From assembly GCF_002086695.1 (NCBI RefSeq), contig NZ_MVIH01000004.1:186001-250000 (forward strand): a DNA stretch of 64,000 nt, written 5' to 3'. Under the pieces are notes generated by a model that was given only the letters and a program-made list of their open reading frames with translations, ran no database searches and was not told where the DNA came from. Made by a program: the position numbers and the translations under genes. Source of the DNA: Mycolicibacterium rhodesiae (GTDB lineage Bacteria > Actinomycetota > Actinomycetes > Mycobacteriales > Mycobacteriaceae). Shown piece after piece: positions 10,505 to 30,135 of the stretch (within the stretch, counting starts at the first letter, position 1; every line of letters starts with the position of its first letter).

Positions 10505-10521
10505 ACGGTAAACGTTACAGT
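10505..10521. promoter_or_regulatory. Operator-like inverted repeat, regulon site 2
   Basis: ACGGTAA-ACG-TTACAGT: one arm is exact, the other has one mismatch to the ACTGTAA consensus. It lies between the divergent aldehyde dehydrogenase and CoA-transferase genes, the same arrangement as site 1. Confidence 0.65.
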
Positions 10522-10606
10522 AGCCGCCTGGAGGGGTGTTGAGCCCATTCCTCGACCCGCCGAGTCCGGGGTGTGAGAATGTGGTTACCACGGTCGGGCG
10601 AGAGGA

Positions 10607-14028: not shown

Positions 14029-14031
14029 GAT

Positions 14032-14048
14032 ACTGTAAGTGTTACAGT
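14032..14048. promoter_or_regulatory. Operator-like inverted repeat, regulon site 3
   Basis: ACTGTAA-GTG-TTACAGT, perfect arms. It lies between the divergent molybdopterin oxidoreductase and thiolase genes. The GTG start proposed for the former is only 4 bp beyond the repeat, so binding would occlude transcription start or an almost leaderless message. Confidence 0.75.
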
Positions 14049-14087
14049 TCCTGCGCGTCTCCGCGGATCCCGAGAGGAAGACCATCG

Positions 14088-15233
14088 ATGAACGATGTCG
14101 CCATCATCGGCGTCGGCCTGCACCCCTTCGGCCGGTTCGAGGGTAAGTCCGCGATGCAGATGGGTGTCGACGCGATCTTCGCCGCCGTCGCCGACGCCGG
14201 CATCGAATGGAAGGACGTGCAGTTCGCCACCGGCGGCAGCTGGACCGTCGCCAACCCGGACGCCATCGTCGGCATGGTCGGGTTGACCGGGATCCCGTTC
14301 ACCAACGTCTTCAACGCCTGCGCCACAGCGGCCAGCGCCGCCAAGGCGTGTGCCGACGGAATCCGGCTGGGCGACTACGACATCGGCATCGCGATCGGTC
14401 TGGACAAGCACCCGCGCGGCGCCTTCACCGAGGATCCCGCGCTGGTCGGGATGCCGCGCTGGTATGCCGAGAACGGCCAGTACCTCACCACGCAGTTCTT
14501 CGGCATGAAGGCCAACCGCTACCTGCACGACCACGGTATCTCCCAGTCCACCCTGGCCAGGGTGGCCGCCAAGAACTTTCGTAACGGCGCACTGAACCCG
14601 AATGCGTTCCGCCGCAAGCCGATCCCCGAAGACCAGATCCTCAATTCGACGATGCTGAACTACCCGCTGACCCAGTACATGTTCTGCGCGCCCGACGAGG
14701 GCGCCGCGGCGGTGGTGATGTGCCGGGCCGACATCGCGCACCGCTACACCGCCAAGCCGGTGTACCTCAAGGCCGTCGAGATCCGCACCCGAACCTACGG
14801 CGCCTACGAGGTCAACACGACCTTCGGCCCCGTCGACGAGGTGCCCGCACCGACGGTGTTCGCCGCCCGCGCCGCGTTCGAAAAATCCGGTGTGTCACCA
14901 CACGACGTCGACGTGATCCAGCTACAGGACACCGATGCCGGCGCGGAGATCATCCACATGGCCGAGTGCGGGTTCTGCCCGGACGGCGACCAGGAGCGGC
15001 TGCTGGCCGACGGCGCGACCGAGATCAACGGCTCCATGCCGATCAACACCGACGGCGGGCTGATCGCCAACGGCGAGCCGATCGGCGCGTCCGGGCTGCG
15101 GCAGATCCACGAGATCGTCCGTCAGTTGCGCGGCGAGGCGGGCGACCGGCAGGTTCCCGGTCAGCCGAAGGTCGGTTTCACCCAGCTCTACGGCGCACCG
15201 GGGACCGCGGCAGCGACCATCCTGACGCGGTAG
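14088..15233 (+). CDS. Thiolase-fold lipid-transfer protein / Ltp-like acyl-CoA thiolase or aldolase
   Basis: 381 aa. Thiolase fold of the SCP-x/Ltp type: nucleophile candidate Cys78 in NVFNACATAASAAKACADG, MAECGFCPDGD in the middle, and the C-terminal NTDGGLIANGEPIGASGLRQ loop, in which the usual thiolase His (GHPxGA) is Glu. This pattern is shared by mycobacterial Ltp-like proteins, some of which are retro-aldolases acting with a DUF35 partner. No DUF35 gene is visible here. ATG 14088 follows GAGAGGA. The downstream CoA-transferase starts 4 bp after the stop, so the two form an operon under site 3. Confidence 0.8.
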   Translation: MNDVAIIGVGLHPFGRFEGKSAMQMGVDAIFAAVADAGIEWKDVQFATGGSWTVANPDAIVGMVGLTGIPFTNVFNACATAASAAKACADGIRLGDYDIGIAIGLDKHPRGAFTEDPALVGMPRWYAENGQYLTTQFFGMKANRYLHDHGISQSTLARVAAKNFRNGALNPNAFRRKPIPEDQILNSTMLNYPLTQYMFCAPDEGAAAVVMCRADIAHRYTAKPVYLKAVEIRTRTYGAYEVNTTFGPVDEVPAPTVFAARAAFEKSGVSPHDVDVIQLQDTDAGAEIIHMAECGFCPDGDQERLLADGATEINGSMPINTDGGLIANGEPIGASGLRQIHEIVRQLRGEAGDRQVPGQPKVGFTQLYGAPGTAAATILTR

Positions 15234-15237: not shown

Positions 15238-16419
15238 ATGGGCGTTCTCGACGGGGTGCGGGTGCTGGACTACGGCAGGTTCATCGCCGCGCCCTGGTGC
15301 AGCGCGCTGCTGGCCGACATGGGCGCCGACGTCCTGCGCGTCGAGAAGCGGGAAGGCGGCGAGGACCGCTGGGTGCAGTCGGTCACGAGCGGAGGTGAAG
15401 GCGGCACCTTCCTGCAGTGCAACCGGAACAAGCGCTCCTTGACACTGGACTCGACGACGCCGGAGGGCGCCGACATCACCCGCCGGTTGGTGGCCCGCTC
15501 CGACATCGTGATCGCCAACATGCCCGCAGCAGGCATGCGGGCCAGCGGGCTCGACTACGAGTCCCTGCGTGCTGTCAAGCCCGACATCATCCTGGCCAGC
15601 GCAACGGCATACGGCGAGGGTGGCCCCTACAGCGATCGGATCGGATTCGACGGGGCGGGTCAGGTGATGTCCGGCGCCGTCTACCGCCAGGGGCTCCCGG
15701 AGCTGCCGATCCGAACGGTGGTCCCCCAGGCCGACTTCGGCACCGCCCTCACCTTGACCATCGGCGTGATGATGGCGCTCTACCACCGCAGCCAGACCGG
15801 GGAGGGCCAGCACGTGGAAGGCGCGCTGCTGCCCACGGCGTTGATGCTGTCCAACGCCTTCCTCATCGAACGTGAGCTGCTCGGCGTCGACAAACCCCGC
15901 GCCGCCAACCGCGGCACCTCGGTCGCACCGTGCGATCTGTACGAAGTCACCGACGGCTGGGTGCTGCTCCAGGTCGCCGGCCGGCCGATGTTCAAGCGGT
16001 GGTGCCGGCTGATCGGCCGCGAGGATCTGTTCGACGATCCGCGCTTCGCCGACGACGACTCCCGATGGCGGCACGGGGACGTCCTCAACGATCTGATGCA
16101 GCAGTGGTGTTCGGGCAAGACGAAAGCCGAAGTGCTCGCAGCGCTCGAAGCTGCGAAACTGCCGGCGGCGCCCCTGAATTCGCCGCAAGAGGTGCTCGAC
16201 GATCCGCACGTCGAGGCGATGGGCTACCTCAAACGGGTGCCGTTCCCTGGTGCGGCCAAACCGGTGCCGCTCATCGAGACGCCGTTTCGCCTCTCGGCGA
16301 CACCCGGCTCGATCCGGCGGCGCGCCCCGCTGCTCGGCGAGCACACCGACGAGGTGCTGGCCGAGATCGGTTACGGCGCCGACGAGATCGCTCAACTGCG
16401 GGGCAATCGCATCGTCTAG
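15238..16419 (+). CDS. CaiB/BaiF family CoA-transferase
   Basis: 393 aa. Family start LDGVRVLDYGRFIAAPWCSALLADMGADVLRVEKREGGEDRW, core NRNKRSLTLDSTTPEGADI, and likely catalytic Asp in VVPQADFGTAL (~residue 165). It is only moderately similar to the class III transferase at 10607, so the two are not a recent duplication. It follows the Ltp-like thiolase by 4 bp. The pair probably activates and cleaves a CoA thioester of the island's substrate. Confidence 0.88.
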   Translation: MGVLDGVRVLDYGRFIAAPWCSALLADMGADVLRVEKREGGEDRWVQSVTSGGEGGTFLQCNRNKRSLTLDSTTPEGADITRRLVARSDIVIANMPAAGMRASGLDYESLRAVKPDIILASATAYGEGGPYSDRIGFDGAGQVMSGAVYRQGLPELPIRTVVPQADFGTALTLTIGVMMALYHRSQTGEGQHVEGALLPTALMLSNAFLIERELLGVDKPRAANRGTSVAPCDLYEVTDGWVLLQVAGRPMFKRWCRLIGREDLFDDPRFADDDSRWRHGDVLNDLMQQWCSGKTKAEVLAALEAAKLPAAPLNSPQEVLDDPHVEAMGYLKRVPFPGAAKPVPLIETPFRLSATPGSIRRRAPLLGEHTDEVLAEIGYGADEIAQLRGNRIV

Positions 16420-17788: not shown

Positions 17789-18985
17789 TCAGGCGAGCAC
17801 CCTTACCGGCACATTGCTCCATCCTGCGACGTTCTGCATGTTGACCCGGCGGCACCCGTCGAAGTCCACCTCATATTTGGGCATGAAGTCGAGCATCTTC
17901 TCCAGTGCGATCGTGCTCTCCAGGCGGGCCAGGGCCGCGCCCAGGCAGCTATGAATTCCGTAGCCCAGCCCCAGATTCTGGGCCTCGGTGCGATCCCGCT
18001 CGATGTCGAATCGGTCCGGGTCGGTCCACGCCAGCGGGTCGCGGTTCGCGGACCCCCCGACCAGGAAGACGGGCTTGGCCGCCGGAATAGTGGCGCCGTG
18101 CAGAGTCACCTCCCGCAGCGAGCAGCGTACGTTGTACTGCGCCGGGGCCTCGTAGCGCAACAGCTCCTCGACGGCCAACGGTATCTTGCTGCGGTCACTC
18201 TGCAGCAAGTCCCACTGGTCCGGATTCTGCGCGAAAACCACCGCCGCGTTGCCGATCAGCTTGGTCACGGTCTCCGCGCCGGCACCACCCAATAGCGTTG
18301 CGAATTCCGTGATTTCAATATTGTCCAGCGGCTCCATCCGCCCGTCATCACGTTCGATCTCGGCACAGATCAGCTTGCTCAACAGGTCGTCGCCCAAGTT
18401 CCCGCGCCGCTTCTTGGTCAGCCGGAAGTAGTAGATCGCCATGTCGACGGCGGCCTTCTGGCCGGCTTCGGTCATCTCGACGTCACCGCTCTCGCGGTGC
18501 AGCAGTTCGTCGATCCACAACCGGACTTGTTGGCGGTCTTCGGCGGGGACGCCCTGCATGCCGGTCATCACGTCGACCGGGAACAGCGCCGAAAAGTCCT
18601 GCACGAAGTCGAATCCGGCAGGGTCGACGGCCGCGAGATGCTTGTCGACCAGCTCGATGACCAGGGCCCGCTGCGCTTCGATCGCCCGCGGCGTAAACAC
18701 CTGGTTGAGCAGGCTGCGCATCCGCCGGTGCGCAGGCGGATCCATCGCGATGATCGACCCGTGCTTGGTGACCTCACCCTTGCGTACCTGACCGAGATCC
18801 ACACCGTAAGCCGAGGAATAGGTCTCGAAGTCCTTGAACGCCGCGGCAACATCGTCGTGCCGGGTCAGCGCGTAGAAGTCGTATTCCTGGCTGTAATAAA
18901 CCGGGGCCTCCTCACGCATCCGCCGGTACGTCTCGTAGGGGCTGAGGAAGAAGTCTTCCGAGAACGGGTCGAAGACGACGGTCAT
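17789..18985 (-). CDS. Cytochrome P450
   Basis: 398 aa. I-helix GAGAET (234-239), ExxR Glu274-Arg277, haem loop LGYGIHSCLG with ligand Cys347. It is the last gene of a nine-gene leftward operon and overlaps the preceding acyl-CoA dehydrogenase by 4 nt. It differs clearly from the P450 at 7700. It is probably a hydroxylase for the operon's substrate; redox partners (ferredoxin/reductase) are not encoded nearby. Confidence 0.9.
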   Translation of the reverse strand: MTVVFDPFSEDFFLSPYETYRRMREEAPVYYSQEYDFYALTRHDDVAAAFKDFETYSSAYGVDLGQVRKGEVTKHGSIIAMDPPAHRRMRSLLNQVFTPRAIEAQRALVIELVDKHLAAVDPAGFDFVQDFSALFPVDVMTGMQGVPAEDRQQVRLWIDELLHRESGDVEMTEAGQKAAVDMAIYYFRLTKKRRGNLGDDLLSKLICAEIERDDGRMEPLDNIEITEFATLLGGAGAETVTKLIGNAAVVFAQNPDQWDLLQSDRSKIPLAVEELLRYEAPAQYNVRCSLREVTLHGATIPAAKPVFLVGGSANRDPLAWTDPDRFDIERDRTEAQNLGLGYGIHSCLGAALARLESTIALEKMLDFMPKYEVDFDGCRRVNMQNVAGWSNVPVRVLA

Positions 18986-20178
18986 TTAGCTGCCGGGACT
19001 TTCGGTGGGAAGTAGTTCGGCTTGCCGAGCCCGAGCACGTGTTGGGCGATCATGTTGCGGAACACCTCGAGTGTGCCGCCGTAGATCCCGAACAGCGGCG
19101 CGAACCGGAAGGCATATTCGGAAGCACCGTTGTCGGCCGCCCCGTCGGTGTCCACCGGCAACACCGAGGCCGCTCCGGCGAGATCCATCAGGTCCGGTGC
19201 GATGTCGCGCATCGTCTGGGCCTGGGCCACCCGCCCGAAAATGCTTGGTGTGGAGAGGGATGCCTCCAGCCGCGCGGCACAGCGGCCGAGCCGGTAGGCG
19301 ACGGCGCCGTCGTCGACCATCCGTCGTCCGGCGGCGTCGACCCGTCCGGCCCGGGCAGCAACGGCGTCGACGGCGGCGGCAAGAACGCCGGCCTGATGAG
19401 CCATGATCGACACGTCGGAGAGCCCATCTGCTTCCGTCGGCGCGGCCCCGTGTTCGGCGTCGAGCGGTCCGCGCAGCACCGTCCAGCCCCCGTTGGCTTC
19501 GCCGAGCAGATACTTCTCATCGACCCGAACGTCGGTGTAGTACACGATGTTCGTGCGGTCGCCGTCGACGGTTCGGATGCCCTGGATCTCGATGCCCGGA
19601 GTGTCCAGGGGAACCAGGAACATGCTCAGGCTCTTGTGTTTCGGCGCGGTCGGATCGCTGTTGGTCAGCAGGAACAAGTACTGGCAGTTGTGCGCGCCGG
19701 TGGTGAACATTTTCGAACCGTTGATCACCCACTGGTCACCGTCGCGGACGGCGCGGGTCTTGCAGGTGGCCACGTCCGAGCCACCCTCAGGTTCGGTGTA
19801 GCCCAGACACATTCGCGCGGTGCCGTCGAAGACCCGCGGCAGCACCTCGTCGACCAGCTCGGGCTTGCCGAACGCGGCGACCGCCCTCGCCACCATCACG
19901 GTGGTCCCCCACGTCACCCACGGCACATGCGCCCTGCGCCGTTCGAGATCCCAGATGCGGCGGCGGATTCGGCTGAACCCGCCGTCGGTGCCCGTCTTGA
20001 ACTCGGCCTCCAGGTACCCGCGAGCACCGAGTGCCAGGTGCACCCCCTCGTCGAAGTTGTCCCCTGTCTGCCGGTCCCGCAGACGCACCTCGTCGGTGAC
20101 GATGCCGGACAGGAATGACCGCAGGTCGCGCTGGAAGGCCGCGTCGTCGGCGCTCAGCTCGACTTCGGTGAAATCCAT
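18982..20178 (-). CDS. Acyl-CoA dehydrogenase, large-subunit type
   Basis: 398 aa FadE-type flavoprotein. FAD/substrate blocks CLGYTEPEGGSDVATCKTRAVRDGDQWVINGSKMFTTGAHNCQY are intact. Near the C-terminus the motif reads GIYGGTLEVFRN, so the MCAD-type catalytic Glu (YEGT) is Gly; the base may lie elsewhere, as in other mycobacterial heteromeric enzymes. It is a close paralogue of the gene at 21423-22616, with an amidohydrolase between them. It probably pairs with a smaller subunit such as 22624-23661. Confidence 0.88.
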   Translation of the reverse strand: MDFTEVELSADDAAFQRDLRSFLSGIVTDEVRLRDRQTGDNFDEGVHLALGARGYLEAEFKTGTDGGFSRIRRRIWDLERRRAHVPWVTWGTTVMVARAVAAFGKPELVDEVLPRVFDGTARMCLGYTEPEGGSDVATCKTRAVRDGDQWVINGSKMFTTGAHNCQYLFLLTNSDPTAPKHKSLSMFLVPLDTPGIEIQGIRTVDGDRTNIVYYTDVRVDEKYLLGEANGGWTVLRGPLDAEHGAAPTEADGLSDVSIMAHQAGVLAAAVDAVAARAGRVDAAGRRMVDDGAVAYRLGRCAARLEASLSTPSIFGRVAQAQTMRDIAPDLMDLAGAASVLPVDTDGAADNGASEYAFRFAPLFGIYGGTLEVFRNMIAQHVLGLGKPNYFPPKVPAAK

Positions 20179-20187
20179 AGCAGCTCC

Positions 20188-21426
20188 TCAATACGGCGCG
20201 GCCAACACGGGTGGCTCGAGTGCGGCCGGGTCGGGGTTGGCCAGCGGCAGACCCATGAACCGCCGGGCGTTGTCGCCCATGAAGTCGTAGGTTCGGCGTT
20301 CGTCCATACCTTCGGCGTACTTCCAGAACCCGCGCGGCTCGGCCAGCCCCTCCGGGTGCGGATAGTCCGACCCGAACAGCACCCTGTCCCAGCCGACGGT
20401 GTTCACCACATCCGAGACGCTGCCCTCCCAGAACGGGCTGACCCAAATGTTGCGCCGGAATACGTCGTGCGGGTGCTCGGGGAAATTCTGCGGCATCTTC
20501 CTGTAGAGGTCGTCGAAATCGTTGAAGAGCTGGCCTATCCACGAACTGCCGTTCTCGACGCTCGCGATCCGCAGCCGCGGGAACCGCGTCAGAGTGCCGT
20601 GGCAGATCAGGCTGGTGATCATGTCGGCGATCTCGCGGTGGCCCAGCACCATCCACCGGAACGCACTCATCGCCATGAAGTTCTGGGTGTGCGGCGGCTC
20701 CCACTTGTTGACGTAGGAATCGAGCGGCGGGTAGCTGGCGTGCAACACGATCGGCAGGCCGGCAGCCTCGACATCACGCCAGAACGGATCGAATTCCGGT
20801 AGTGCCGGGGAACGCCAGCCGCGTACGCCGCGGACCGGTCCCGGTTTGATCAACGCCACTCTGGCCCCGTGGGACAGGATGTAGTCGAGTTCGGCTTGCG
20901 CGCCTGCGACTTCGGACAGATTGATGATCGGGGTGGAGAACAGCCGGTCGTCGTAGACGTAGGACCAGTGCTCGGCCATCCACTGGTTGAGGGCGTGGAT
21001 GATCGCCAGCGTCAGCTCCGGATCGTCGGCCGACGAGTGCTCGACGAGGCTGGCCAGCGTCGGATAGTTCAGCGCCTGCACGACACCCTGGCGGTCAAGC
21101 TCGGCGATCCGGTCCGCCGGGTTCCTGGTGGCCGCCGGCGCTTCGATTGCCGGGCCTTGCATTTCGCGCAACGTCAGGCCTTCGGAATTCTCCCCTGCGA
21201 AGAACTTCTCGTGCGCGCCAGGGGCGGCGACCCGCTCGAACGTCGGGTTCGGGATGAAGTCGCTGACGTGAGAGTTGATGACCAGCCTGGTCTGCTTGCC
21301 CATCTGCGCGTACTGCACCGCATAGCGATACCGTTCGGGCAGATACCTGGTGAGCGCCTCGCGTTTTTCGTACATGTGCTGATCGGCGTCGAAGATCGGC
21401 ACGTCGCGCCGCTGCGCTTCGGTCAT
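20188..21426 (-). CDS. Amidohydrolase-2 family metal-dependent hydrolase/decarboxylase
   Basis: 412 aa TIM-barrel protein. N-terminal FDADQHMYE takes the place of the His-x-His motif, a mid-chain VLHASYPPLD gives a metal His, and FGSDYPHPEG near the C-terminus supplies the conserved Asp. This subgroup (ACMSD-like) includes decarboxylases and ring-cleavage hydrolases that use CoA or aromatic acids. It starts with an ATGA overlap to the upstream acyl-CoA dehydrogenase and lies 9 bp before the next gene. It is one of three amidohydrolases in this operon. Confidence 0.85.
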   Translation of the reverse strand: MTEAQRRDVPIFDADQHMYEKREALTRYLPERYRYAVQYAQMGKQTRLVINSHVSDFIPNPTFERVAAPGAHEKFFAGENSEGLTLREMQGPAIEAPAATRNPADRIAELDRQGVVQALNYPTLASLVEHSSADDPELTLAIIHALNQWMAEHWSYVYDDRLFSTPIINLSEVAGAQAELDYILSHGARVALIKPGPVRGVRGWRSPALPEFDPFWRDVEAAGLPIVLHASYPPLDSYVNKWEPPHTQNFMAMSAFRWMVLGHREIADMITSLICHGTLTRFPRLRIASVENGSSWIGQLFNDFDDLYRKMPQNFPEHPHDVFRRNIWVSPFWEGSVSDVVNTVGWDRVLFGSDYPHPEGLAEPRGFWKYAEGMDERRTYDFMGDNARRFMGLPLANPDPAALEPPVLAAPY

Positions 21427-22616
21427 GACACCTTCTTCGGTTGCGGTGCGTACGCGGGCTTGCCCAGCCCCAGCACGTACTGGCCGATCATGTTGCGGAA
21501 GACCTCCAGCGTGCCGCCGTAGATCCCGGACAGCGGCGCGAAGCGGTACACGTACTCCGACGCGCCGTCGTCGGCAGCGCCGTCGGTCTCCACCGGAAGC
21601 GTTGCGGCAGTACCGAGAATGTCCATCAGGTCCGGTGAGATGTCCCGCATGGTCTGCGCGATCGCGACCCGGCCGTAGAGACTCGGTGAACTCAGGGCGG
21701 CCTCCATCCGGGCCGTGCTGCGCCCAAGCCGGTAAGCCACCGATCCGTCGTCGACCGCACGGCGGCCGTTCGGGTCGGACCGGCCGACGGCGGCGGCCAC
21801 CTTGTCGACGGCAGTAGCCATGAAGTTGGCCTGGTGCATCATGATCGACACATCGGCCAATCCGTCGGCTGCCGCGGCCACCGCCCCGTGCTCGACGTTG
21901 AGCGGTTCCCGCAAGACGGTCCAGCCGCCGTTGACCTCACCGAGTCGGTACCTGTCGTCGACGCGGACGTCGCTGTAGTACACGATGTTCGTCCGGTCAC
22001 CGTCGACGGTACGCAGACCCTGGATCTCGATGCCCGGAAGGTTCAGCGGGACCAGGAACATGGTGAGGCTCTTGTGCTTCTGCGCATCGGGATCGGTGTT
22101 GGTGATCAGAAACACGTACTGGCAGTTGTGCGCGCCGGTGGTGAACATCTTGGAGCCATTGATAACCCACGTTGATCCATCCTTCACCGCGCGGGTTTTG
22201 CAGGTGGCGACATCCGAGCCGCCTTCGGGTTCGGTGTAGCCCAGACACAGCCGGATGTGCCCGCTGAAAACCCCCGGTAGCACTTCGGCTTTGAGCTCAT
22301 CGGAACCGAATGTGTCGACCGAGTGTGCCACCATCGACGTCGTCCCCCAGGTGACCCACGGGACTGCGAACCGTCGCTTCTCGAGTTCCCAGATCCGCCG
22401 GCGCACCCGGGTGAAGCCGCCCTCGGATTCCGGCTTCCACTCGGCCTCGAGGTAGCCGGCCGCTCCGAGCGCCAGATGCACGCCCTCGTGGAAGTTGTCA
22501 CCGGTCTCTCGGTCGTGCCGGATCACCTCGTCGGTGATGTGCGTCGTCAGGAAGTCGCGGACCTCGTCGAGGAACAGCTGGTCCTCGGCGGTCAGCTCTA
22601 CGCGTGAGAAGTCCAT
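21423..22616 (-). CDS. Acyl-CoA dehydrogenase, large-subunit type (paralogue)
   Basis: 397 aa from ATG 22616 (MDFSRVELTAED); a longer open frame to 22760 runs into the upstream gene and was rejected. It shares nearly every block with 18982-20178, including GDNFHEGVHLALGA, CLGYTEPEGGSDVATCKTRAVKDG and the altered GIYGGTLEVFRNMIGQYVLGLGKP motif. This points to a tandem duplication with an amidohydrolase in between. It lies 7 bp after the smaller dehydrogenase, consistent with an alpha/beta heteromer. Confidence 0.88.
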   Translation of the reverse strand: MDFSRVELTAEDQLFLDEVRDFLTTHITDEVIRHDRETGDNFHEGVHLALGAAGYLEAEWKPESEGGFTRVRRRIWELEKRRFAVPWVTWGTTSMVAHSVDTFGSDELKAEVLPGVFSGHIRLCLGYTEPEGGSDVATCKTRAVKDGSTWVINGSKMFTTGAHNCQYVFLITNTDPDAQKHKSLTMFLVPLNLPGIEIQGLRTVDGDRTNIVYYSDVRVDDRYRLGEVNGGWTVLREPLNVEHGAVAAAADGLADVSIMMHQANFMATAVDKVAAAVGRSDPNGRRAVDDGSVAYRLGRSTARMEAALSSPSLYGRVAIAQTMRDISPDLMDILGTAATLPVETDGAADDGASEYVYRFAPLSGIYGGTLEVFRNMIGQYVLGLGKPAYAPQPKKVS

Positions 22617-22623
22617 GACGGTC

Positions 22624-23661
22624 CTAGGCGGTTTCGCGGTCTGCCAGGATGCGCCCGATCTGCTTGGCGCTGGCGCCGGGGTCGCCACCGGCCAGCGGCC
22701 AGCCCCTTGCCCGCACCAGGTACGCGGTCGCGGCGGCCTCCGAGGACACTCCGAGGCCACCTTGGATGTGCACGGCCATCGTCGCCGCCTTGGACGCCTC
22801 TTCTGCCATGAATACGAACGCCGACGGCGCCAGTTCGCGACGCGCCTGCGGCTCGTTGTCGAGGAACCACGCAGCGCGGCGGGCCAGGTTGCGTCCGCCT
22901 TCGACGGTGATCACCATGTTGGCCAGCGGGTGCGAGATGGCCTGTAGCGTGGCGATCGGGACGCCGAGCGTGTAGCGGGACTTGGCGAATTCGGCGGCGA
23001 TGGTCATGGTCTCCTCGACGAGGCCGACAAGCGCCGATGCCGTCAGAAGTCGCCATTCATCCAGTGCGCGAGCATATTCGGCGAGCGCGTCCGGCCCACT
23101 GCCCAGCACCGTGCGGCTGTCGGCGGCCGCCGGGTCGACCCAGGCCATCGGGAGGCGGCCGATGTTGTCGACCTTGGCCGGACGCGTGCCGAAGGTCAGC
23201 GCGACGACCTCGTCGCCGTCGCGGATGATGATGTGGTCGGCGATCGACCCGGTCGGAATGAGCCGCACCCCGGAGACGCTGTCCAGCGAGGCGTCCAGGC
23301 CGGCGATCTGGTTGCCGCTCATCACCTCGTCGGTGAGGGCGCCCAAGCCGGCCAGCAGACGGGCAGCGCACACATGGTCGATCCACGGTACCGGGGCAAT
23401 GCAGCGTCCGAGTTCCTCGGCCACCAGTGTCAAGTCCACCAGCGTGGCACCGTCGCCACCCGCCGACTCCGGGACGGCCATCGTCGTTGCGCCCATGGTG
23501 CACAACCGTTCCCACAGACTCTTGTCGAATCCGGTGGCCTCGGCAGCCCGCACCGTCTCGATCGTGCTGTGGGTCTTGAAGAATTGCCGATAGGCGGTCT
23601 GCAGATCGGTGTGGTCCTCGGAGAGGCTGTAGTCGAGCCTGCGCAGTTCGTAGCGGTCCAT
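22624..23661 (-). CDS. Acyl-CoA dehydrogenase, small-subunit type
   Basis: 345 aa, shorter than catalytic FadE proteins. It keeps the N-terminal helical domain (LWERLCTMGATTMAVPESAGGDGATLVDLTLVAEELGR) and a C-terminal helical bundle with AVHIQGGLGVSSEAAATAYLVRA, but lacks the EGTxE catalytic segment. This is the pattern of the non-catalytic or half-site partner in heterotetrameric mycobacterial acyl-CoA dehydrogenases that act on bulky CoA esters. It sits between an amidohydrolase and the large subunit, with abutting genes. Confidence 0.82.
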   Translation of the reverse strand: MDRYELRRLDYSLSEDHTDLQTAYRQFFKTHSTIETVRAAEATGFDKSLWERLCTMGATTMAVPESAGGDGATLVDLTLVAEELGRCIAPVPWIDHVCAARLLAGLGALTDEVMSGNQIAGLDASLDSVSGVRLIPTGSIADHIIIRDGDEVVALTFGTRPAKVDNIGRLPMAWVDPAAADSRTVLGSGPDALAEYARALDEWRLLTASALVGLVEETMTIAAEFAKSRYTLGVPIATLQAISHPLANMVITVEGGRNLARRAAWFLDNEPQARRELAPSAFVFMAEEASKAATMAVHIQGGLGVSSEAAATAYLVRARGWPLAGGDPGASAKQIGRILADRETA

Positions 23662-24489
23662 TCAGCGCTCCCTGAAGAAGAAATCGTTGGCGTTGTCGTA
23701 CAGATAGTTCTCGAGGACGTCCGGCGGTAAGTCGAGTGCCTCGGCTTCCGGCACGACGCGGTGCATCCTGAGGACCGGCCAGTCGGAGCCGAACATCACC
23801 TTGTTCGGTCCACGGGTGCGCATGTAGTGAAGCAGGCTGTCCGGCAGCCGCTTCGGCGACCACGCCGACGTCATCATCCGCAGGTTCTCGTACTTGATCA
23901 TCAATCGGATCGCGACGTCCCACCAGGGGTCGGCGCCGTGGATCATGCACAACCGGAGTTCGGGGAACCGCACGCACACCCGGTCCAGGTGGATCGGATT
24001 CTGCACCTCACCGGGAATCGGCGGACCGGGCAGTCCGGTGTTCAGGCACAGCGGCAGGTCAAGCTCCGCGCATTTGGTGTATAGCGGGTAGTACACGGCA
24101 TCACTCGGCGGATACTGAGCGTCGCCCCAGAAGCTGGGTCCCACGGCGGCATACACAACCGGTAGGCCGGCAACCGCCGCCGTCAGCTCGCGCAAGGTGG
24201 GCATCGGTGTGAGCAGGTTGAGGCCACCCATCGCGAGGGCGAACCGGTCCGGGCGCGTTTCGGCGAACTTGCGGGCGGTCGCAGACGGCTTGACGAGGTT
24301 GTCCATCAGGACGGCCTTCTGCACGCCCTGGGCATCCATCTCGTCGAGCAGTTCGGCCATGTCCACCTGGGCGAACATCGACTTCGGGCCCTTGAAGTAG
24401 TCATCGCGGACCTTGAGCATCCACGTCGGCTGTTGTTCGATCTCACCGAAGTGGACGTTGACCAGACCGTCTATCACCTTGCGCGTCAT
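23662..24489 (-). CDS. Amidohydrolase-2 family protein (short form)
   Basis: 275 aa, much shorter than the other two amidohydrolases. Conserved points: an N-terminal DGLVNVHFGE in place of DxHxH, MIHGADPWWD in the middle, MFGSDWPVLRMHR at the metal-Asp position. The frame begins with ATG in an ATGA overlap with the upstream acyl-CoA ligase and ends abutting the dehydrogenase small subunit. The role may be hydration or decarboxylation of a CoA-linked or free acid intermediate; the sequence does not decide. Confidence 0.8.
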   Translation of the reverse strand: MTRKVIDGLVNVHFGEIEQQPTWMLKVRDDYFKGPKSMFAQVDMAELLDEMDAQGVQKAVLMDNLVKPSATARKFAETRPDRFALAMGGLNLLTPMPTLRELTAAVAGLPVVYAAVGPSFWGDAQYPPSDAVYYPLYTKCAELDLPLCLNTGLPGPPIPGEVQNPIHLDRVCVRFPELRLCMIHGADPWWDVAIRLMIKYENLRMMTSAWSPKRLPDSLLHYMRTRGPNKVMFGSDWPVLRMHRVVPEAEALDLPPDVLENYLYDNANDFFFRER

Positions 24490-26096
24490 GGCAGCGAAAC
24501 CTTGCTGTTGGCAGTCGCTTTGGCCCAGCGATAATCGGCCTTGCCGTTGCCGAGGCGCTTGACCTGGTGCACGACGATGAACTCCTTCGGCGCCTTGTAG
24601 CGGGCCAGTTGCGCTGTGCAGTGCTCGTGCAATGCGTCATGGGCAACGTCGGTATGCAGCGCCACCAGCGCGACGAGCTCCTGACCCCACCGCTCGCTGG
24701 ACCGCCCCACCACCAGAGCGTCGGCGACATCGGGGTGCGCGCGCAGCACCTCTTCGACCTCCTCGACGAACACCTTCTCCCCGCCGGTGTTGACCACCAG
24801 TGAATCTCGGCCGAACAGCCGCAGCGTTCCGTCCGGCGCCAGCGAGCCGCGGTCACCGGATATCACCACCCGCCCTCCGCCTACCTCGGGGAAGGTCCTG
24901 CGGGTGGCCTCAGCATCGTCGAAATAGCCGAGCGGGATCCGGCCCGCGCGGGCCACCCAACCGACCTGGTCCTCGCCGGCGTCGAGGAAGCGGCCGTAGT
25001 CCTCGGCGAGAACCAATGCGCCGTCCCGTAATTCGAAGGTGTCCTTGTGGTCACCGCGCATGCTGCGCCCGAACCCGACGTTGCCGGTCTCCGACGAACC
25101 GTAGCCGTTGATCAAGATGATGTCGGGCAGCAGTTCGAGCAAGGCGTGCTGATGCTTGGGGTTGGTCGCCGCGCCCCCGGTCGCCAACGCGAACAAGGAG
25201 GACAGGTCGTAGTCGCCCCGCCGCAGCTCCTCGACCAGAGGGGCGGCGTAGGCGTCGCCGACCATCGTCATCATGCCGACCTTGTGCCGCTGCGCCGTCG
25301 ACAGAACGCGTTGCGGATCAAACTTCGGGGAGTCGTAGAGCACCACGGTCTGCCCGTTCAGGACTCCGGCGAACGCCGTCCACATCCCGGCCGCGTGCAT
25401 CAGCGGGGACACTGCGAACCACGGCGCACCGGGCGTGCCGAGCTTGTCGTGGATCTCACTGACCGACTCGTGATCGGCACCGTTCATCGAGATGGCATAG
25501 GTGTCGGCTTGCCGCCACATCACCCCTTTCGGTCGGCCCGTGGTGCCGCCCGTGCAGATCATCAGCACGTCGTCTGGCGAGGCCTCGATGCCCTGATCCT
25601 GATCACCCTGCGCCAGAGCGTCATTCAGATCTATCGCACCGGGAAGATCGGGTCCGGCACTGGCGTCGTCGATCGAGATCAGCAGCTCGGCACTCTCCGG
25701 TGGTAGCACGTCGGCGAACTTGACGCCCAGTGAGCGGTGGTAGATCACGCCGCGCGGCTTGACATAGTCCAGCAGTTCGGCGACTTCACGCGGCGTGTAG
25801 TGGTGGTTGACATTGACGGGTACGACTCGGCCCTTGAGGCAGCCGATGACCATGTCCGGGTAGAGATCGTTGTGCATGATCAGCGCGACCCGGTCCTGAC
25901 CGCACTCCCAGTTCTGTAGGTCGGAGCGTTCGCGGTGCGCGCCGAATCCCCTGCCGGCCAGGAAGTTCGCCAACCGGCGCGTGCGGTCGGCCGCATCGGC
26001 GAAGGTGCTGGTGAGTTCGCCGCAGATCGTCATCGGCCGGTCTGGAACGACCTCGGCGATGGCGTCGAGCACCGCACCGATCGTCCATTCGGGCAC
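24486..26096 (-). CDS. Acyl-CoA synthetase (FadD-type, AMP-forming)
   Basis: 536 aa ANL-superfamily ligase. P-loop CTGGTTGRPKGVMWR, A5 motif NGYGSSETG, A8 region VISGDRG…FGRDSLVVNTGGEKVFVEEVE and C-terminal catalytic Lys in GNGKADYRWA. It activates a carboxylic acid as acyl-AMP, then acyl-CoA. The start is GTG 26096, 2 bp after the upstream stop. The region after LAGRG carries a short insertion (AHRERSDLQNWECGQ) also seen in the FadD17/FadD19 steroid-side-chain group, which is suggestive only. Confidence 0.9.
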   Translation of the reverse strand: MPEWTIGAVLDAIAEVVPDRPMTICGELTSTFADAADRTRRLANFLAGRGFGAHRERSDLQNWECGQDRVALIMHNDLYPDMVIGCLKGRVVPVNVNHHYTPREVAELLDYVKPRGVIYHRSLGVKFADVLPPESAELLISIDDASAGPDLPGAIDLNDALAQGDQDQGIEASPDDVLMICTGGTTGRPKGVMWRQADTYAISMNGADHESVSEIHDKLGTPGAPWFAVSPLMHAAGMWTAFAGVLNGQTVVLYDSPKFDPQRVLSTAQRHKVGMMTMVGDAYAAPLVEELRRGDYDLSSLFALATGGAATNPKHQHALLELLPDIILINGYGSSETGNVGFGRSMRGDHKDTFELRDGALVLAEDYGRFLDAGEDQVGWVARAGRIPLGYFDDAEATRRTFPEVGGGRVVISGDRGSLAPDGTLRLFGRDSLVVNTGGEKVFVEEVEEVLRAHPDVADALVVGRSSERWGQELVALVALHTDVAHDALHEHCTAQLARYKAPKEFIVVHQVKRLGNGKADYRWAKATANSKVSLP

Positions 26097-26098
26097 GC

Positions 26099-27307
26099 TC
26101 AGACCGCCGACGACACGGAGACACCCAGCAAGTCCAATGCATTGTCCCGCATCACCTTCCGGGTGTCTTCGGCACTGAACTCCGGGAACTGCGGGATGTC
26201 GGCGGTGAAGCTCATCGGATCGGCCAATCCCTCACCGTGCGGCCAGTCCGAGCCGAACAGGATCTTGTCGACACCGATCGTGTCCGCCAGCAGCTTTACG
26301 TCATCCTCGTAGTACGGGGCGATCCACACGTTGTTCTTCAGCTGCGCGACCGGGTCTTCCGTGAAGTGGTACGGCGCGGTGTTGGCGGCCTTCTTCAGCC
26401 GCTTGATCAACCGGTAGACGAAGTAGGAGCCGTTCTCGATGCTCGCCACCTTGAGCTTGGGATGCCGGGTGAAGACCTGGTGCACGATCATCGATGCCAT
26501 CGAGTCGTGGATCGCGCGGTCGTCGAGTAGCACGTTGTCGAGCGGATCCCGCTTCCCGAATCCCTCGAAGGTCCCGGTGCCACCCCACAGCGCCGAGATG
26601 GCCAGGTAGCCACTGTCGGACAGGTGGAAGACCACCGGTGCGCCCGCTTCGGCCAGCCGGGCCCACACCGGGTCGTGCACCGGATCGCCCAGTGAGCGCG
26701 GCTTCACTCGTCCCGGCACCGGCGCCGGCCGCACGCAGACGATCTTGGCACCGCGACTCAGCACGAACTCGACCTCGGCCACCGCCAGGTCGGGGTCGGC
26801 CAGCGAGATGATCGGGGCCGATAGGAACCGGTGGTCGGGGCGGTCGAAGCCCCAGTCCTCGTCGAGCCACAGATTGAAGGCATGCACCGAGGCCATCGTC
26901 GCCTCGATGTCTCGCTTGAGCGCCTCCTCGACCCCGCACGCGAAGGTCGGCAGCATGAACACGGTTTCGAGATTCTGCTTGTCCAGGATCCTAATCCGGG
27001 CATCCCGGTTCTGGTATTCGGGATGATCGGCCAACCGGTCGACCTTCATCAGCGACCCCGGGTCGACACCGTCGGGGATCTCGCCCCGGAACAACAAGTC
27101 CAGACATCCCGGCTCGATGATCGGGTCGAACGTCGGGTTGGGGATGAACTGGTTGACGACGCCGCCGATGACGGCGAACGTGCGTTTGCCCTCGGTGAGC
27201 ATCTGCACGCCACGGCGCTTGAACTCCTTCGGCAGATGCCGGGTGAACGAATCGATCGGCTCGTAATAATGGTTGTCGACGTCAATCGCCCGGTAATCCA
27301 AACTCAT
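26099..27307 (-). CDS. Amidohydrolase-2 family metal-dependent hydrolase
   Basis: 402 aa. Begins YRAIDVDNHYYEP (metal-site strand), has VVFHLSDSGY in the middle and LFGSDWPHGEG near the C-terminus. It is similar in layout to 20188-21426 (FIPNPTFDPIIEPG versus FIPNPTFERVAAPG), so these two are paralogues. It is second in the operon, 13 bp after the crotonase gene. Confidence 0.85.
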   Translation of the reverse strand: MSLDYRAIDVDNHYYEPIDSFTRHLPKEFKRRGVQMLTEGKRTFAVIGGVVNQFIPNPTFDPIIEPGCLDLLFRGEIPDGVDPGSLMKVDRLADHPEYQNRDARIRILDKQNLETVFMLPTFACGVEEALKRDIEATMASVHAFNLWLDEDWGFDRPDHRFLSAPIISLADPDLAVAEVEFVLSRGAKIVCVRPAPVPGRVKPRSLGDPVHDPVWARLAEAGAPVVFHLSDSGYLAISALWGGTGTFEGFGKRDPLDNVLLDDRAIHDSMASMIVHQVFTRHPKLKVASIENGSYFVYRLIKRLKKAANTAPYHFTEDPVAQLKNNVWIAPYYEDDVKLLADTIGVDKILFGSDWPHGEGLADPMSFTADIPQFPEFSAEDTRKVMRDNALDLLGVSVSSAV

Positions 27308-27320
27308 CGGTGTCGTCCTC

Positions 27321-28163
27321 TCACGTCGGGGGCGGGAAGTTCGGGGTGCGCTTCTCGAAGAACGCGGTGATGCCCTCGATGAAGTCGGGCCGGTGCATGG
27401 ACTCGTGCATCAGCGCCTCGGCCCGCCCGCTGGCGTCGGCCGCCTCGCGCAGCGCGTCGCCGTAGACCTGGCGTTTGATGACGGCCAGTGAACTGGGTGC
27501 GCAGTTGGCGGCGATATCCTCCGCGTATTCGATTGCACGGCCCAGCAACTCGTCCGGTGCGACGACTTCTTTGACCATGCCGAGTTCGAAAGCCTCCTCG
27601 GCATAGAACACCCGGCCGCTCAACAACAAATCCAAGGCAGCTCCCCAACCGACCACCTTGGGCAGGATCCACGAGATCCCGTACTCGGCGATCAGGCCGC
27701 GGCGCACGAACGAGGTGGTGAACTTCGCTCCGGCAGCGGCGAATCGGATATCGCACATGAGCGCCTGAGTCAGCCCGATGCCGGCGCACGCACCGTTGAT
27801 GGCCGCGATGACCGGCTTGCTCACGGTCGTGACGAACAGCGGGTGCCGCTCTCCCACCATCTTGGTCAGGTCGGCTTCTCCGGCGGTGCCGACGCTGGCC
27901 GAACTGATCGACGACAGGTCGCCCATGTCGGCTCCGGCGCAGAACGCCCGGCCGCTGCCGGTGACGACGATCGCGCGAACGTCCGGGTCGGCTTCGGCGG
28001 CGTCCATCCCCGCGTAGAAACCCGCGGCCAGCCCACCACCCCAGCCGTTCATCCGCTCCGGACGGTTGAACGTCAGAACCGCGACGCCGCGCTCGCGTAC
28101 CTCGTACAGAACCGGCTTGGCCGCAGCGGAATTCGCGGTGAGATCGGCGTGGGTGTCGCTCAC
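27321..28163 (-). CDS. Enoyl-CoA hydratase/isomerase (crotonase) family
   Basis: 280 aa from GTG 28163. Oxyanion-hole segments GSGRAFCAGADM and NGACAGIGLTQALMCDIRFAAAGAKF are intact. The next block FVRRGLIAEYGISWILPKVVG carries one acidic residue in place of the usual Glu pair. It is the first gene of the nine-gene leftward operon. It probably adds water to the alkene formed by the dehydrogenases downstream. Confidence 0.88.
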   Translation of the reverse strand: MSDTHADLTANSAAAKPVLYEVRERGVAVLTFNRPERMNGWGGGLAAGFYAGMDAAEADPDVRAIVVTGSGRAFCAGADMGDLSSISSASVGTAGEADLTKMVGERHPLFVTTVSKPVIAAINGACAGIGLTQALMCDIRFAAAGAKFTTSFVRRGLIAEYGISWILPKVVGWGAALDLLLSGRVFYAEEAFELGMVKEVVAPDELLGRAIEYAEDIAANCAPSSLAVIKRQVYGDALREAADASGRAEALMHESMHRPDFIEGITAFFEKRTPNFPPPT

Positions 28164-28210
28164 CTACGGGTACCTCCGGGAATGGCCGGGCAACGTGCGG
28201 ATTTGTCCAT

Positions 28211-28227
28211 ACTGTACACCTATCGGT
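28211..28227. promoter_or_regulatory. Degenerate copy of the ACTGTAA/TTACAGT operator
   Basis: ACTGTAC-ACC-TATCGGT: left arm 6/7, right arm 4/7 to consensus. It is about 48 bp upstream of the GTG start of the nine-gene operon, where an operator would be expected. On its own the match is weak; the position supports it. Confidence 0.4.
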
Positions 28228-28405
28228 AACACCTTCCGCAATGGCCGCTCGAGCCGGCCGAGCTGCTGGTGGGCCTGCTCGTTCTGAGCCCTTCCAGCCT
28301 CGGGCAATTCGGTCCGCGGCGGGCCCGAATACGGATAGTCGCCGATCGGCAATCCCACGGCCTGGCGTCGCGTGCCGTCACCATCACCGCTCCTCGGTCT
28401 CACGC

Positions 28406-29203
28406 TCAGGTGAAGTCGGATCCGCCGTCGACGTTGACGTTGGCGCCGGTCATGTACGAGTTGCGTCTCGACGCCAAAAAGGCGACCACGGGCCCGATCT
28501 CGTCGGGCAGCCCGGCTCGCGGCAGATGTGCTGGATGGCCGAAATGCTCGTCGATGGCGGCCATCAGCGCATTGGGGTCGGAGCCGTCGACTCCGACGGA
28601 TTCGGCCCAGCCGGTGAGCGCCTCGGACGCGATGCTGCCCGGCGAAACGACGTTGACCAGGATTTCGTCGGGCGCCAGCGACAGCGACAGGTTCTTGGAG
28701 ACGCTGGTGACCATCGCTTTGGCCGCGGTGTAGGCCGCCAGCCGCGGGCTCTGCCGTTGGGTCGACTGAGCGGCGAAGTTGACGATGCGCGCCCACTCCG
28801 CGGCCCGCAGCAGGGGTAGCGCCGCGCGCACGCAGCGCACCATGCCCATCGCACCCTCGTCGATCGCGGTGTGCCACTGCGCGTCGGTCAAATCGCCGAA
28901 AGTGCCGTGCACACTTGGCCCTACCGCATTGATCAATATATTGAGCTGCCCTCCCCAGCGCTCACCGATGCGACCGAACGCGCGCTGAACCTGCGCGTCA
29001 TCGCCGGTGTCGGCCACCACCGCCAGCGCATCCGGGCTGCCTCGTCCGCTCAGCTCGTCGGCCGCGGCGTCGAGCACCGCCGAACTGCGGCCGATCAGCG
29101 CGATCCGCGCACCGTCGTCGGCCAGGCACCGTGCGGCAGCCAAACCCATTCCGCGGCCGCCACCGACCACGACGGCGGTGGCGTCACCGAGCCCGAGATC
29201 CAC
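28406..29203 (-). CDS. Short-chain dehydrogenase/reductase
   Basis: 265 aa from GTG 29203, preceded by an AAGG site. The open frame to 29347 would contain the operator site at 29280, so it was not used. Cofactor loop VGGGRGMGLAAARCLADDGA, then NILINAVG, active Ser in NFAAQS, and Tyr-x3-Lys as AYTAAKAM. It ends with MTGANVNVDGG, typical of FabG-like SDRs. It is divergent from the 29401 TetR gene. The ~240 bp after its stop, up to the crotonase operon start, is non-coding. Confidence 0.85.
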   Translation of the reverse strand: MDLGLGDATAVVVGGGRGMGLAAARCLADDGARIALIGRSSAVLDAAADELSGRGSPDALAVVADTGDDAQVQRAFGRIGERWGGQLNILINAVGPSVHGTFGDLTDAQWHTAIDEGAMGMVRCVRAALPLLRAAEWARIVNFAAQSTQRQSPRLAAYTAAKAMVTSVSKNLSLSLAPDEILVNVVSPGSIASEALTGWAESVGVDGSDPNALMAAIDEHFGHPAHLPRAGLPDEIGPVVAFLASRRNSYMTGANVNVDGGSDFT

Positions 29204-29279
29204 GGCCTTGGCGTTCCCGCGGAACTGCGTCCGACATCCGCGGCTCCTCCATGGTGCTTCGCTGGTATCGGTAAAACCT

Positions 29280-29296
29280 ACTATAGGCTTTACAGT
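29280..29296. promoter_or_regulatory. Operator-like repeat (one exact arm) between SDR and TetR genes
   Basis: ACTATAG-GCT-TTACAGT: right arm exact, left arm 5/7 to the ACTGTAA consensus. It lies between the divergent SDR and the 29401 TetR gene. This makes that TetR the best candidate for the protein that binds all the repeats. Confidence 0.55.
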
Positions 29297-29400
29297 AACG
29301 GGCCGAGACTGACGGATCCGGAGCGGGGACGGGGCTCCACACACCACTTCCGGGGTAAGGTTTCCACCCGCTGATTCTCGAACGGAAGGGTGGACCTGCA

Positions 29401-30135
29401 GTGGCCAAGCCAGCGACCGCCGCCAAGCGGCCCCGGCGCGAGCGTGGGTCGATCAATCCCGATGACATCATCGCCGGCGCTTTCGAACTCGCCGAGCAGG
29501 TGTCGATCGACAACCTCAGCATGCCGCTGCTTGGCAAGCACCTCGGCGTCGGAGTCACCAGTATCTACTGGTACTTCCGCAAGAAGGACGACCTGCTCAA
29601 CGCGATGACCGACCGCGCACTGGGCCAGTACGTGTTCGCCACGCCATACGTCGAGGCCGCCGACTGGCGTGAGACTTTGGCCAACCATGCGCGTGCGATG
29701 CGAAAGACGTTCATGGGCAACCCGATCCTGTGCGACCTGATCCTCATCCGCTCCGCACTGAGCCCGCGCGCGGTGCGGGTAGGCGAGCAGGAGGTCGAAA
29801 AGGCGATCACCAGTCTGGTCGAGGCCGGCCTGTCCGCGGAGGACGCGTTCGACACCTATTCCGCGGTCTCGGTGCATGTTCGCGGTTCGGTTGTGCTGCA
29901 CCGGCTTTACGAGAAGAACCGGGCCGCCGGCGAGGATGCCCACCAGCTCGAGGACGCGATCATCGGCACCGCCGAGAGCACCCCGCTGCTTGCCAAGGTG
30001 AGCGCAGAGGGGCACCGGATCGGCGGCGCAGACGAGCGTAACTTCGAGTTCGGCCTCGAGTGCATCCTCGACCACGCGGCCGCGCTCATCGAGGAGGGCA
30101 AGAAATCCTCCGCGAGCAGACGCAAACGGTCCTGA
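29401..30135 (+). CDS. TetR-family regulator; candidate master regulator of the island
   Basis: 244 aa. A basic N-terminal tail (KRPRRERG) precedes a TetR HTH (DDIIAGAFELAEQVSIDNLSMPLLGKHLGVGVTSIYWYFRKKDDLL) with the classic 'TSIYWYFRKKDDLL' recognition end. The C-terminal domain is long, ending in KKSSASRRKRS. It starts with GTG 29401. It is divergent from an SDR with an operator-like repeat between them. Its last codons form one arm of a long hairpin (30113-30170). Confidence 0.85.
   Translation: MAKPATAAKRPRRERGSINPDDIIAGAFELAEQVSIDNLSMPLLGKHLGVGVTSIYWYFRKKDDLLNAMTDRALGQYVFATPYVEAADWRETLANHARAMRKTFMGNPILCDLILIRSALSPRAVRVGEQEVEKAITSLVEAGLSAEDAFDTYSAVSVHVRGSVVLHRLYEKNRAAGEDAHQLEDAIIGTAESTPLLAKVSAEGHRIGGADERNFEFGLECILDHAAALIEEGKKSSASRRKRS

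Follow-up and report, generated by a model that had tools for sequence, protein, structure and literature searches.

Organization of the operon

The window analyzed here is a stretch of 64,000 nucleotides from Mycolicibacterium rhodesiae. ORF calls combined with Pfam searches placed nine co-directional genes on its minus strand, running from position 28163 down to 17789:

27321..28163, minus strand: ech, crotonase/enoyl-CoA hydratase family, first gene of the operon (PF00378, E 3.2e-49; NCBIfam PRK06210 above cut-off)
26099..27307, minus strand: AH1, PF04909 protein predicted to be a dinuclear (Fe/Fe or Mn/Fe) oxygenase (MAP2389c (4dzi) orthologue; ligand set)
24486..26096, minus strand: FadD, acyl-CoA ligase (PF00501; NCBIfam PRK07798 above cut-off)
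23662..24489, minus strand: AH2, short PF04909 protein lacking the ligands of the oxygenases, with hydrolase, lactonase or decarboxylase as candidate functions
22624..23661, minus strand: ADs, small acyl-CoA dehydrogenase subunit, FadE27/Tcur3481-like (middle domain not recognised)
21423..22616, minus strand: ADL1, large acyl-CoA dehydrogenase subunit, FadE26/Tcur3483-like
20188..21426, minus strand: AH3, second predicted dinuclear oxygenase of PF04909 (ligand set)
18982..20178, minus strand: ADL2, large acyl-CoA dehydrogenase, ADL1 paralogue
17789..18985, minus strand: cytochrome P450, last gene of the operon (PF00067)

A sequence-only reading had described these genes as an overlapping or abutting run from the crotonase to the P450, in which three amidohydrolases stand among one small and two paralogous large acyl-CoA dehydrogenases (ACADs) and a ligase. 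All nine genes were found at the positions it gave, with gaps between -4 and +13 bp (from ech to the P450: +13, +2, -4, 0, +7, -4, +9 and -4 bp), and Pfam agreed on the content, i.e., three Amidohydro_2, one AMP-binding, three ACAD-type, one ECH and one P450 protein. For ADL1, the start at 22616 is preferred over the first ORF start, 22760. Terminator-like matches were no more frequent than in shuffled sequence.

The tandem paralogues ADL1 and ADL2 are 72.6% identical. A large chain with the FAD/middle domain and the catalytic Glu (E242 of ADL1 lies opposite E247 of 4x28_A in the alignment) is encoded next to a small chain in which no middle domain was recognised, as in the genes of heteromeric mycobacterial ACADs, and this gene pair predicts that ADs/ADL is of the heteromeric (α2β2) type. 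The large and small subunits of FadE26-FadE27 (4x28) and Tcur3483-Tcur3481 (6wy8/6wy9) are likewise encoded side by side; unlike these systems, the operon provides two large paralogues alongside a single small subunit.

AH1 and AH3 carry the ligands of dinuclear oxygenases

AH1 and AH3 share 35% identity, and both passed the PF04909 cut-off. They were aligned to the amidohydrolase-related dinuclear oxygenases (AROs), whose six ligands were taken as the positions equivalent to D25, H27, H211, E265, D337 and H340 of AibH2. The corresponding residues are D11, H13, H228, E291, D354 and H357 in AH1 and D15, H17, H229, E291, D354 and H357 in AH3, with E359 in addition in each, and the ARO ligand set (D-x-H, H, E, D-x-x-H, plus E) is complete in both proteins. 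It was invariant in 105 of 105 AH1 orthologues and intact in the AH3 orthologues (n = 36) except for one residue in 1/36. AROs and non-AROs fell apart in the tree, where AH1, AH3, MAP2389c and three host paralogues formed one clade (support 1.00) beside the PtmU3, DitZ and AibH2 groups.

The sole solved structure in this clade is that of the AH1 orthologue MAP2389c of M. avium subsp. paratuberculosis (4dzi), a protein known by structure only, in which all ligands are conserved; our literature search turned up no clade member with a reported activity. A Fur-like ChIP peak was reported at MAP2389c, but since the same study reports thousands of sites (PMC7192006), it was not taken as evidence. 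The modelled fold of AH3 matched 4dzi and PtmU3, the latter being the best match outside its own clade. Since the models of AH2 and AH3 had pLDDT values of 68 and 66 and shallow alignments, they were used as support only.

Similarity to the characterised AROs is low (phmmer, 41-57 bits). Among these, PtmU3 hydroxylates a diterpenoid-CoA (PMC7782822, PMC10127204), whereas AibH2 hydroxylates an unactivated methyl group, SfbO performs O2-dependent C-H hydroxylation and LynB7 catalyses an oxidative decarboxylation (PMC7782822, PMC10401708, PMC10811679, PMC10127204). PtmU3 (6omp), a nonheme diiron monooxygenase of platensimycin/platencin biosynthesis, shares the PF04909 TIM barrel with AH1 and AH3, its aligned ligand string (DHHEDHE) is identical to theirs, and its substrate is CoA-linked and cyclic, as we propose for AH1 and AH3 (PMC7782822, PMC10127204). 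It differs in its score of 57 bits with AH1, its separate clade and its biosynthetic context, the context here being catabolic. DitZ of Rhodococcus rhodochrous (8uyr, manganese-substituted) is actinobacterial like the host and has the same ligand set (DHHEDHD); however, it belongs to another ARO clade, and its nearest host paralogue is C45:241965 rather than AH1 or AH3. Its name presumably refers to abietane diterpenoid (dit) catabolism. AibH2 of the AibH1H2 2-aminoisobutyrate monooxygenase has the same ligands as AH1 and AH3 across the aligned part, but it has a partner, AibH1, and a free amino acid as substrate.

AibH2 and SfbO, which share ARO chemistry, are each encoded beside a small Rieske protein, unlike AH1 and AH3. 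An adjacent small Rieske ferredoxin is an accessory ARO trait used to find AibH2-like members, and here it is absent: the operon contains no Rieske ferredoxin or reductase serving AH1 and AH3, nor did a motif scan of the window recognise a small ferredoxin; apart from the motif of the KshA-like Rieske protein, its matches looked random. That protein, a full-length oxygenase, is the sole Rieske protein in the window; small Rieske proteins are encoded elsewhere in the genome. An AibH1H2-like pair with a Rieske gene lies at C10:81.9-84.3 kb.

It had been proposed that all three amidohydrolases hydrolyse or decarboxylate CoA-linked ring intermediates. PF04909 does include decarboxylases, hydratases and lactonases, AH3 was also scored by ACMSD and dihydroxybenzoate decarboxylases, and AH2 lies on the non-oxygenase side of the tree. 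AH1 and AH3, however, lack the hydrolase-type H-x-H/H histidine pattern; they have near-invariantly D-x-H, E291 and D354-x-x-H357 in its place and cluster with the AROs, which makes three hydrolytic enzymes improbable and leaves only AH2 as a candidate for such a role. On the basis of their ligands and clade, AH1 and AH3 probably act as monooxygenases with an Fe/Fe or Mn/Fe centre and have CoA thioesters as substrates.

AH2 is a different type of PF04909 protein

AH2 is only about 24% identical to AH1 or AH3, over short stretches. Its residues at the ARO ligand positions are N11, H13, N150, H184, D236 and V239, which do not make up the ARO set. In the decarboxylases/hydrolases of PF04909, such as ACMSD, resorcylate decarboxylase and LigJ, the third ligand position is a histidine instead of Glu and D-x-x-H is absent. 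Compared with these enzymes, AH2 keeps H184 and D236 but has asparagine in the first and second positions, as N11 and N150. AH2 groups with non-oxygenases in the tree, and the fold neighbours of its model are BB4693, LigJ and decarboxylases. For AH2, a role as hydrolase, lactonase or decarboxylase is the more likely, each of these being a candidate activity.

A putative palindromic operator links the operon to neighbouring genes

A 19-bp palindrome, TACTGTAANNNTTACAGTA, precedes the operon and likewise the TetR gene adjacent to the operon, the KshA-like Rieske gene and the CaiB/ALDH and Mo-enzyme/thiolase genes. The sites and genes concerned are as follows:

28210..28228, minus strand: putative operator, diverged copy TACCGATAGGTGTACAGTA, upstream of the operon
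29279..29297, unstranded: putative operator TACTATAGGCTTTACAGTA, between the SDR and TetR genes
14031..14049, unstranded: putative operator TACTGTAAGTGTTACAGTT, divergent promoter of Mo-enzyme/thiolase
10504..10522, unstranded: putative operator AACGGTAAACGTTACAGTA, divergent promoter of ALDH/CaiB1
5994..6012, unstranded: putative operator GACTGTAATGATTACAGTA, upstream of the KshA-like Rieske gene
47865..47883, unstranded: weaker putative operator TACTGTAAGTGATACGGCA, upstream of an SDR gene
29401..30135, plus strand: TetR-family regulator, proposed regulon repressor (PF00440/PF02909; operator in its own promoter)
28406..29230, minus strand: SDR dehydrogenase, divergent from TetR
11833..14085, minus strand: molybdopterin oxidoreductase (PF00384, PF01568, PF04879; start probably downstream of the annotated one)
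13923..15233, plus strand: SCP-x/lipid-transfer type thiolase (true start probably near 14088)
15238..16419, plus strand: CaiB/BaiF CoA-transferase 2
10607..11836, plus strand: CaiB/BaiF CoA-transferase 1
8946..10505, minus strand: aldehyde dehydrogenase
6001..7095, plus strand: Rieske oxygenase with a KshA_C domain (PF00355, PF19298; true start probably downstream of 6012)

Just outside the window, an acyl-CoA carboxylase-like gene lies beside an operator.

In 88 of 99 loci, ech was preceded by a close form of the operon operator. Since the strict consensus of this operator gave only one match in the strain's own genome, the regulon became visible only with the general palindrome; allowing up to 2 mismatches, the latter gave six sites in this genome, all inside 50.6 kb. 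The genome-wide number of sites was not above that of a reversed-pattern control, and therefore the regulon argument rests on clustering and co-occurrence. Among 37 genomes of the genus, operator and AH1 were both present in 27 and both absent in 10 (operator in 27/27 genomes with AH1 and 0/10 without; p about 3e-9, if genomes are independent). In a further set of 22 genomes, 21 of them from other genera, the operator was present in 9/11 genomes bearing AH2 and 0/11 lacking it. The palindrome thus lies at the regulator and target promoters, is clustered and co-occurs with the genes, which supports one TetR regulon comprising the operon and the other genes behind a predicted operator, to which the TetR repressor would bind. 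Hence, the earlier suggestion that the operon, Rieske, P450, CaiB and Mo-enzyme genes belong together was borne out by the operator that they share with the TetR gene.

The FadE26/FadE27-like ACAD pair, the SCP-x thiolase and the KshA-domain Rieske enzyme would also fit a cluster that extends the known system of cholesterol/phytosterol catabolism (KstR/KstR2) instead of forming a pathway of its own. We consider this quite unlikely, since the gene set includes a TetR of its own and carries a different operator, and no operon protein passed an NCBIfam cut-off for a sterol-pathway enzyme. A box search of the window for KstR/KstR2 control found no KstR box and one KstR2-like match, at 12020, inside the Mo-enzyme gene.

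Distribution of the gene set

The order ech, AH1, FadD, AH2, ADs, ADL is repeated across the genus, with this six-gene core present in about 90% of 105 loci, which indicates an arrangement beyond chance. Only close relatives carry the AH3-ADL2-P450 tail, a clade-specific extension present in 10/105 loci. Other genera of the family retain the AH2-ADs-ADL core, and in several of them FadD-AH2-ADs-ADL is followed by a KshA-like Rieske gene, which in some genera comes directly after ADL. In the neighbourhood of the operon in this strain, the BVMO gene is broken and a flavin monooxygenase gene is missing, and thus the full pathway may not run here.

Proposed pathway

We infer that the operon is part of an aerobic, CoA-dependent route degrading a probably cyclic carboxylic acid, with AH1 and AH3 as oxygenases and one TetR repressor acting through the 19-bp palindromic operator; we put the probability of this reading at roughly 0.65. 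FadD would convert the acid to its CoA thioester, the ADs/ADL heteromer would oxidise the thioester to the enoyl-CoA, and the crotonase would hydrate or isomerise the latter. AH1 and AH3 would hydroxylate the CoA-bound skeleton alongside the P450 and the KshA-like Rieske enzyme, and AH2 would more likely open or trim the oxidised product by lactone hydrolysis, C-C hydrolysis or decarboxylation. The order of these steps, like the steps themselves, is a proposal, and the whole set would be under the one repressor.

The substrate is probably terpenoid- or steroid-like, judging from family resemblance. The same enzymology, with AROs acting on CoA esters, could instead serve a branched or alicyclic (naphthenic type) acid or a substituted aromatic acid. 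The families closest to the ligase and the crotonase lack substrate specificity, and the acyl-CoA carboxylase-like gene beside an operator just outside the window would fit branched chains; on the other hand, PtmU3, the characterised CoA-type ARO, acts on a diterpenoid, and the KshA-like and FadE26/27-like enzymes suggest bulky rings. We regard a non-terpenoid substrate as the less likely, though a serious, alternative to the terpenoid- or steroid-like one.

An undescribed pathway for such a compound had been suggested from the sequence. Its novelty was upheld to the extent that no operon matching ours with an assigned pathway was found in the searchable literature, where subscription papers are thinly covered, while the FadE26/FadE27-type ACADs and the KshA-domain Rieske enzyme fit the proposed substrate without proving it. 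Clusters for ibuprofen or other reported Mycolicibacterium degradation were set aside; the published account names no amidohydrolase gene.

The regulated gene set appears to be common to most mycobacteria and hitherto undescribed. More tentatively, and with the odds slightly against the proposal in full, the MAP2389c-like proteins may form a fourth ARO clade, in which AH1 and AH3 would carry out two successive O2-dependent oxidations of a CoA-bound polycyclic skeleton in a TetR-controlled, widespread and undescribed mycobacterial pathway, and AROs may be a major class of catabolic oxygenase in actinobacteria. The operator offers a way to the repressor and to its targets, and to an induction assay by which the substrate could be identified. 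This genome has 13 genes with the full ARO ligand set, about 11 of them near CoA-metabolism genes, compared with the handful of characterised AROs described in the literature searched, and therefore a mis-annotated oxygenase class may hide under the name "amidohydrolase" throughout mycobacteria.

Organization and conservation of the operon

The sequence-only reading had placed a nine-gene operon in this region, and its position and minus strand were confirmed for all nine genes:

28163 to 17789, minus strand: crotonase (ech), amidohydrolase AH1 (26099-27307), acyl-CoA ligase (FadD), amidohydrolase AH2, small acyl-CoA dehydrogenase (ADs), first large dehydrogenase (ADL1, start 22616 preferred), amidohydrolase AH3, second large dehydrogenase (ADL2), P450

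The intergenic gaps are -4 to +13 bp. By Pfam, three of the nine proteins belong to PF04909 and three are acyl-CoA dehydrogenase chains, the others being a crotonase, an AMP-binding ligase and a P450. ADL1 and ADL2 share 73% identity and AH1 and AH3 35%, with AH2 a distant relative of both. Terminator-like patterns in the operon region were not more frequent than in shuffled sequence.

Relatives are in Mycobacterium and Mycolicibacterium, with AH1 identities of 97% (Mycobacterium sp. ENV421) and 95% (M. sphagni). AH1 orthologues (at least 69% identity) were found in 27 of 37 genus genomes, counting the host, itself a 6.0-Mb draft. The core order ech-AH1-FadD-AH2-ADs-ADL is almost constant over 105 loci, where AH2 occurs in 101, ADs and FadD in 100 each, ech in 99 and ADL1 in 91, the large chain being scored as ADL2 in some of the remaining loci. 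The full nine-gene arrangement was seen in 10 of the 105, in some cases the same strain from two collections. AH3 orthologues (at least 83%), often on the opposite strand, are present in 12 of the 37 genomes, all of which also have AH1. An AH3 orthologue (76%) on the 864-kb plasmid pJCM12687 of M. branderi adjoins P450, TetR and Baeyer-Villiger monooxygenase (BVMO)-like genes.

Other genera of the family retain the AH2-ADs-ADL block, usually with FadD and sometimes with AH1, and a KshA-like Rieske gene follows it in several cases. Nocardia alba and N. gamkensis carry AH1 orthologues at 85% identity, above expectation for another genus, with operator-like sites close by and the rest of the core absent from the stretch examined; horizontal transfer is possible.

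AH1 and AH3 carry an oxygenase ligand set

PF04909 includes decarboxylases, hydratases and hydrolases, as well as monooxygenases termed amidohydrolase-related dinuclear oxygenases (AROs; PMC10811679). AROs as such are already known. The metal ligands of AibH2 are D25, H27, H211, E265, D337 and H340 (PMC7782822, PMC10401708). Their equivalents are D11, H13, H228, E291, D354 and H357 in AH1, and D15, H17, H229, E291, D354 and H357 in AH3. Both proteins also have, close by, a counterpart of the iron-binding acidic residue of PtmU3 (E313). No position of the set varies among 105 AH1 sequences, and a single D to E change is the only variation among 36 AH3 sequences. AH2 lacks the set, carrying N11, H13, N150, H184 and D236 and then no histidine, all conserved; the nearest folds to its structure model are BB4693, LigJ and decarboxylases.

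The full set occurs in 13 of the 21 host PF04909 genes. In a tree with MAP2389c (4dzi, the AH1 orthologue of M. avium subsp. paratuberculosis) and partial sequences of PtmU3, DitZ and AibH2 taken from printed alignments, set-bearing proteins were separated from set-lacking ones (split support 0.82-0.90), the sole exception being an AibH1-like partner, which lacks the set and grouped with AibH2. AH1, AH3, MAP2389c and three host paralogues formed one clade (support 1.00). The AH3 structure model matched 4dzi best and then PtmU3, with ACMSD-type decarboxylases only slightly lower; therefore the ligand set, not the fold, decides the ARO assignment. MAP2389c and the crotonase MAP2395c are among the 43 strongest Fur-like ChIP peaks in iron-replete M. 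avium subsp. paratuberculosis (PMC7192006, Table 1); with thousands of sites called in that study, the evidence is weak.

When homology to window genes was taken as a rough annotation, 11 of the 13 host genes with the full set were near acyl-CoA dehydrogenase, FadD, CaiB or crotonase-like genes. A second, paralogous cluster on another host contig (C12:666176-670306), with an ARO, a short amidohydrolase and a large/small dehydrogenase pair, suggests a recurring module. At C10:81894-84339, two amidohydrolase genes, an AibH1H2-like pair, adjoin a small Rieske protein and resemble the AibH1H2-AibG arrangement. Unlike this pair, the operon has no small Rieske gene beside it, and a scan of the window gave no small ferredoxin.

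A shared operator supports a proposed TetR regulon

The sequence TACCGATAGGTRTACAGTA, or a close variant, is nearly constant upstream of ech, in 88 of 99 loci. The TetR gene promoter contains a related palindrome, from which the general form TACTRTA-N5-TACAGTA was derived. Sites in the window are at 5994, 10504, 14031, 28210, 29279 and 47865, giving 12 strand-counted matches against 0.33 expected, each palindrome being counted twice. Genome-wide, six distinct sites were found at up to two mismatches, all within C34:183253-233883; the operon copy at 28210, diverged with three mismatches, is additional to these.

At up to one mismatch, the operator was present in 27 of 27 genus genomes with AH1 and in 0 of 10 without (p = 3e-9, treating genomes as unrelated). 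Another 22 genomes, of which 21 belong to other genera, showed it in 9 of 11 with AH2 versus 0 of 11 without. Operator sites in relatives flank the same genes (BVMO/KshA-like, P450, ALDH/CaiB and Mo-enzyme/thiolase). From its position, we infer that the adjacent TetR protein binds these sites.

Some neighbouring genes are missing, or are or appear broken:

4453-5960, minus strand: Baeyer-Villiger-type flavin monooxygenase, about 94 bp missing relative to relatives, plus a frameshift
about 6018-6077: about 880 bp missing relative to relatives, at an LLM-class flavin monooxygenase-like gene that they carry between the BVMO and KshA-like Rieske genes
47354-47812: SDR gene downstream of the weak operator at 47865, apparently frameshifted after IRGVVHG

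The first break is either genuine or a product of faulty assembly. Just outside the window (C34:183253-184802), an extra operator is flanked by an LLM-type gene and a gene resembling an acyl-CoA carboxylase carboxyltransferase; a gene of this kind adjoins the core in some other genera too.

Proposed pathway

ADL1 matched Tcur3483 and FadE26 (4x28_A), and ADs matched Tcur3481 and FadE27 (4x28_D). E242 of ADL1 aligned to E247 of 4x28_A, the catalytic base of that enzyme. The family matches of FadD and ech gave no substrate information. A bulky-ring substrate is proposed by analogy with PtmU3, which acts on a diterpenoid-CoA, and from the Rieske protein's KshA domain and the resemblance to FadE26/27.

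Gene content, ligand sets and regulon come from the computational analysis; the pathway mechanism is a proposal. FadD would activate the substrate, ADs/ADL would dehydrogenate it and the crotonase would hydrate the product. AH1 and AH3, with the P450 and the Rieske enzyme, may oxidize C-H bonds of the CoA-bound skeleton, SDRs would carry out an oxidation step, AH2 may catalyze a hydrolytic or decarboxylating cleavage, and thiolases would perform the final step. Compared with the open-licence literature (subscription journals may differ), what is new is that the MAP2389c-containing ARO clade is placed within a regulon for CoA-dependent catabolism that is conserved and associated with a TetR gene.
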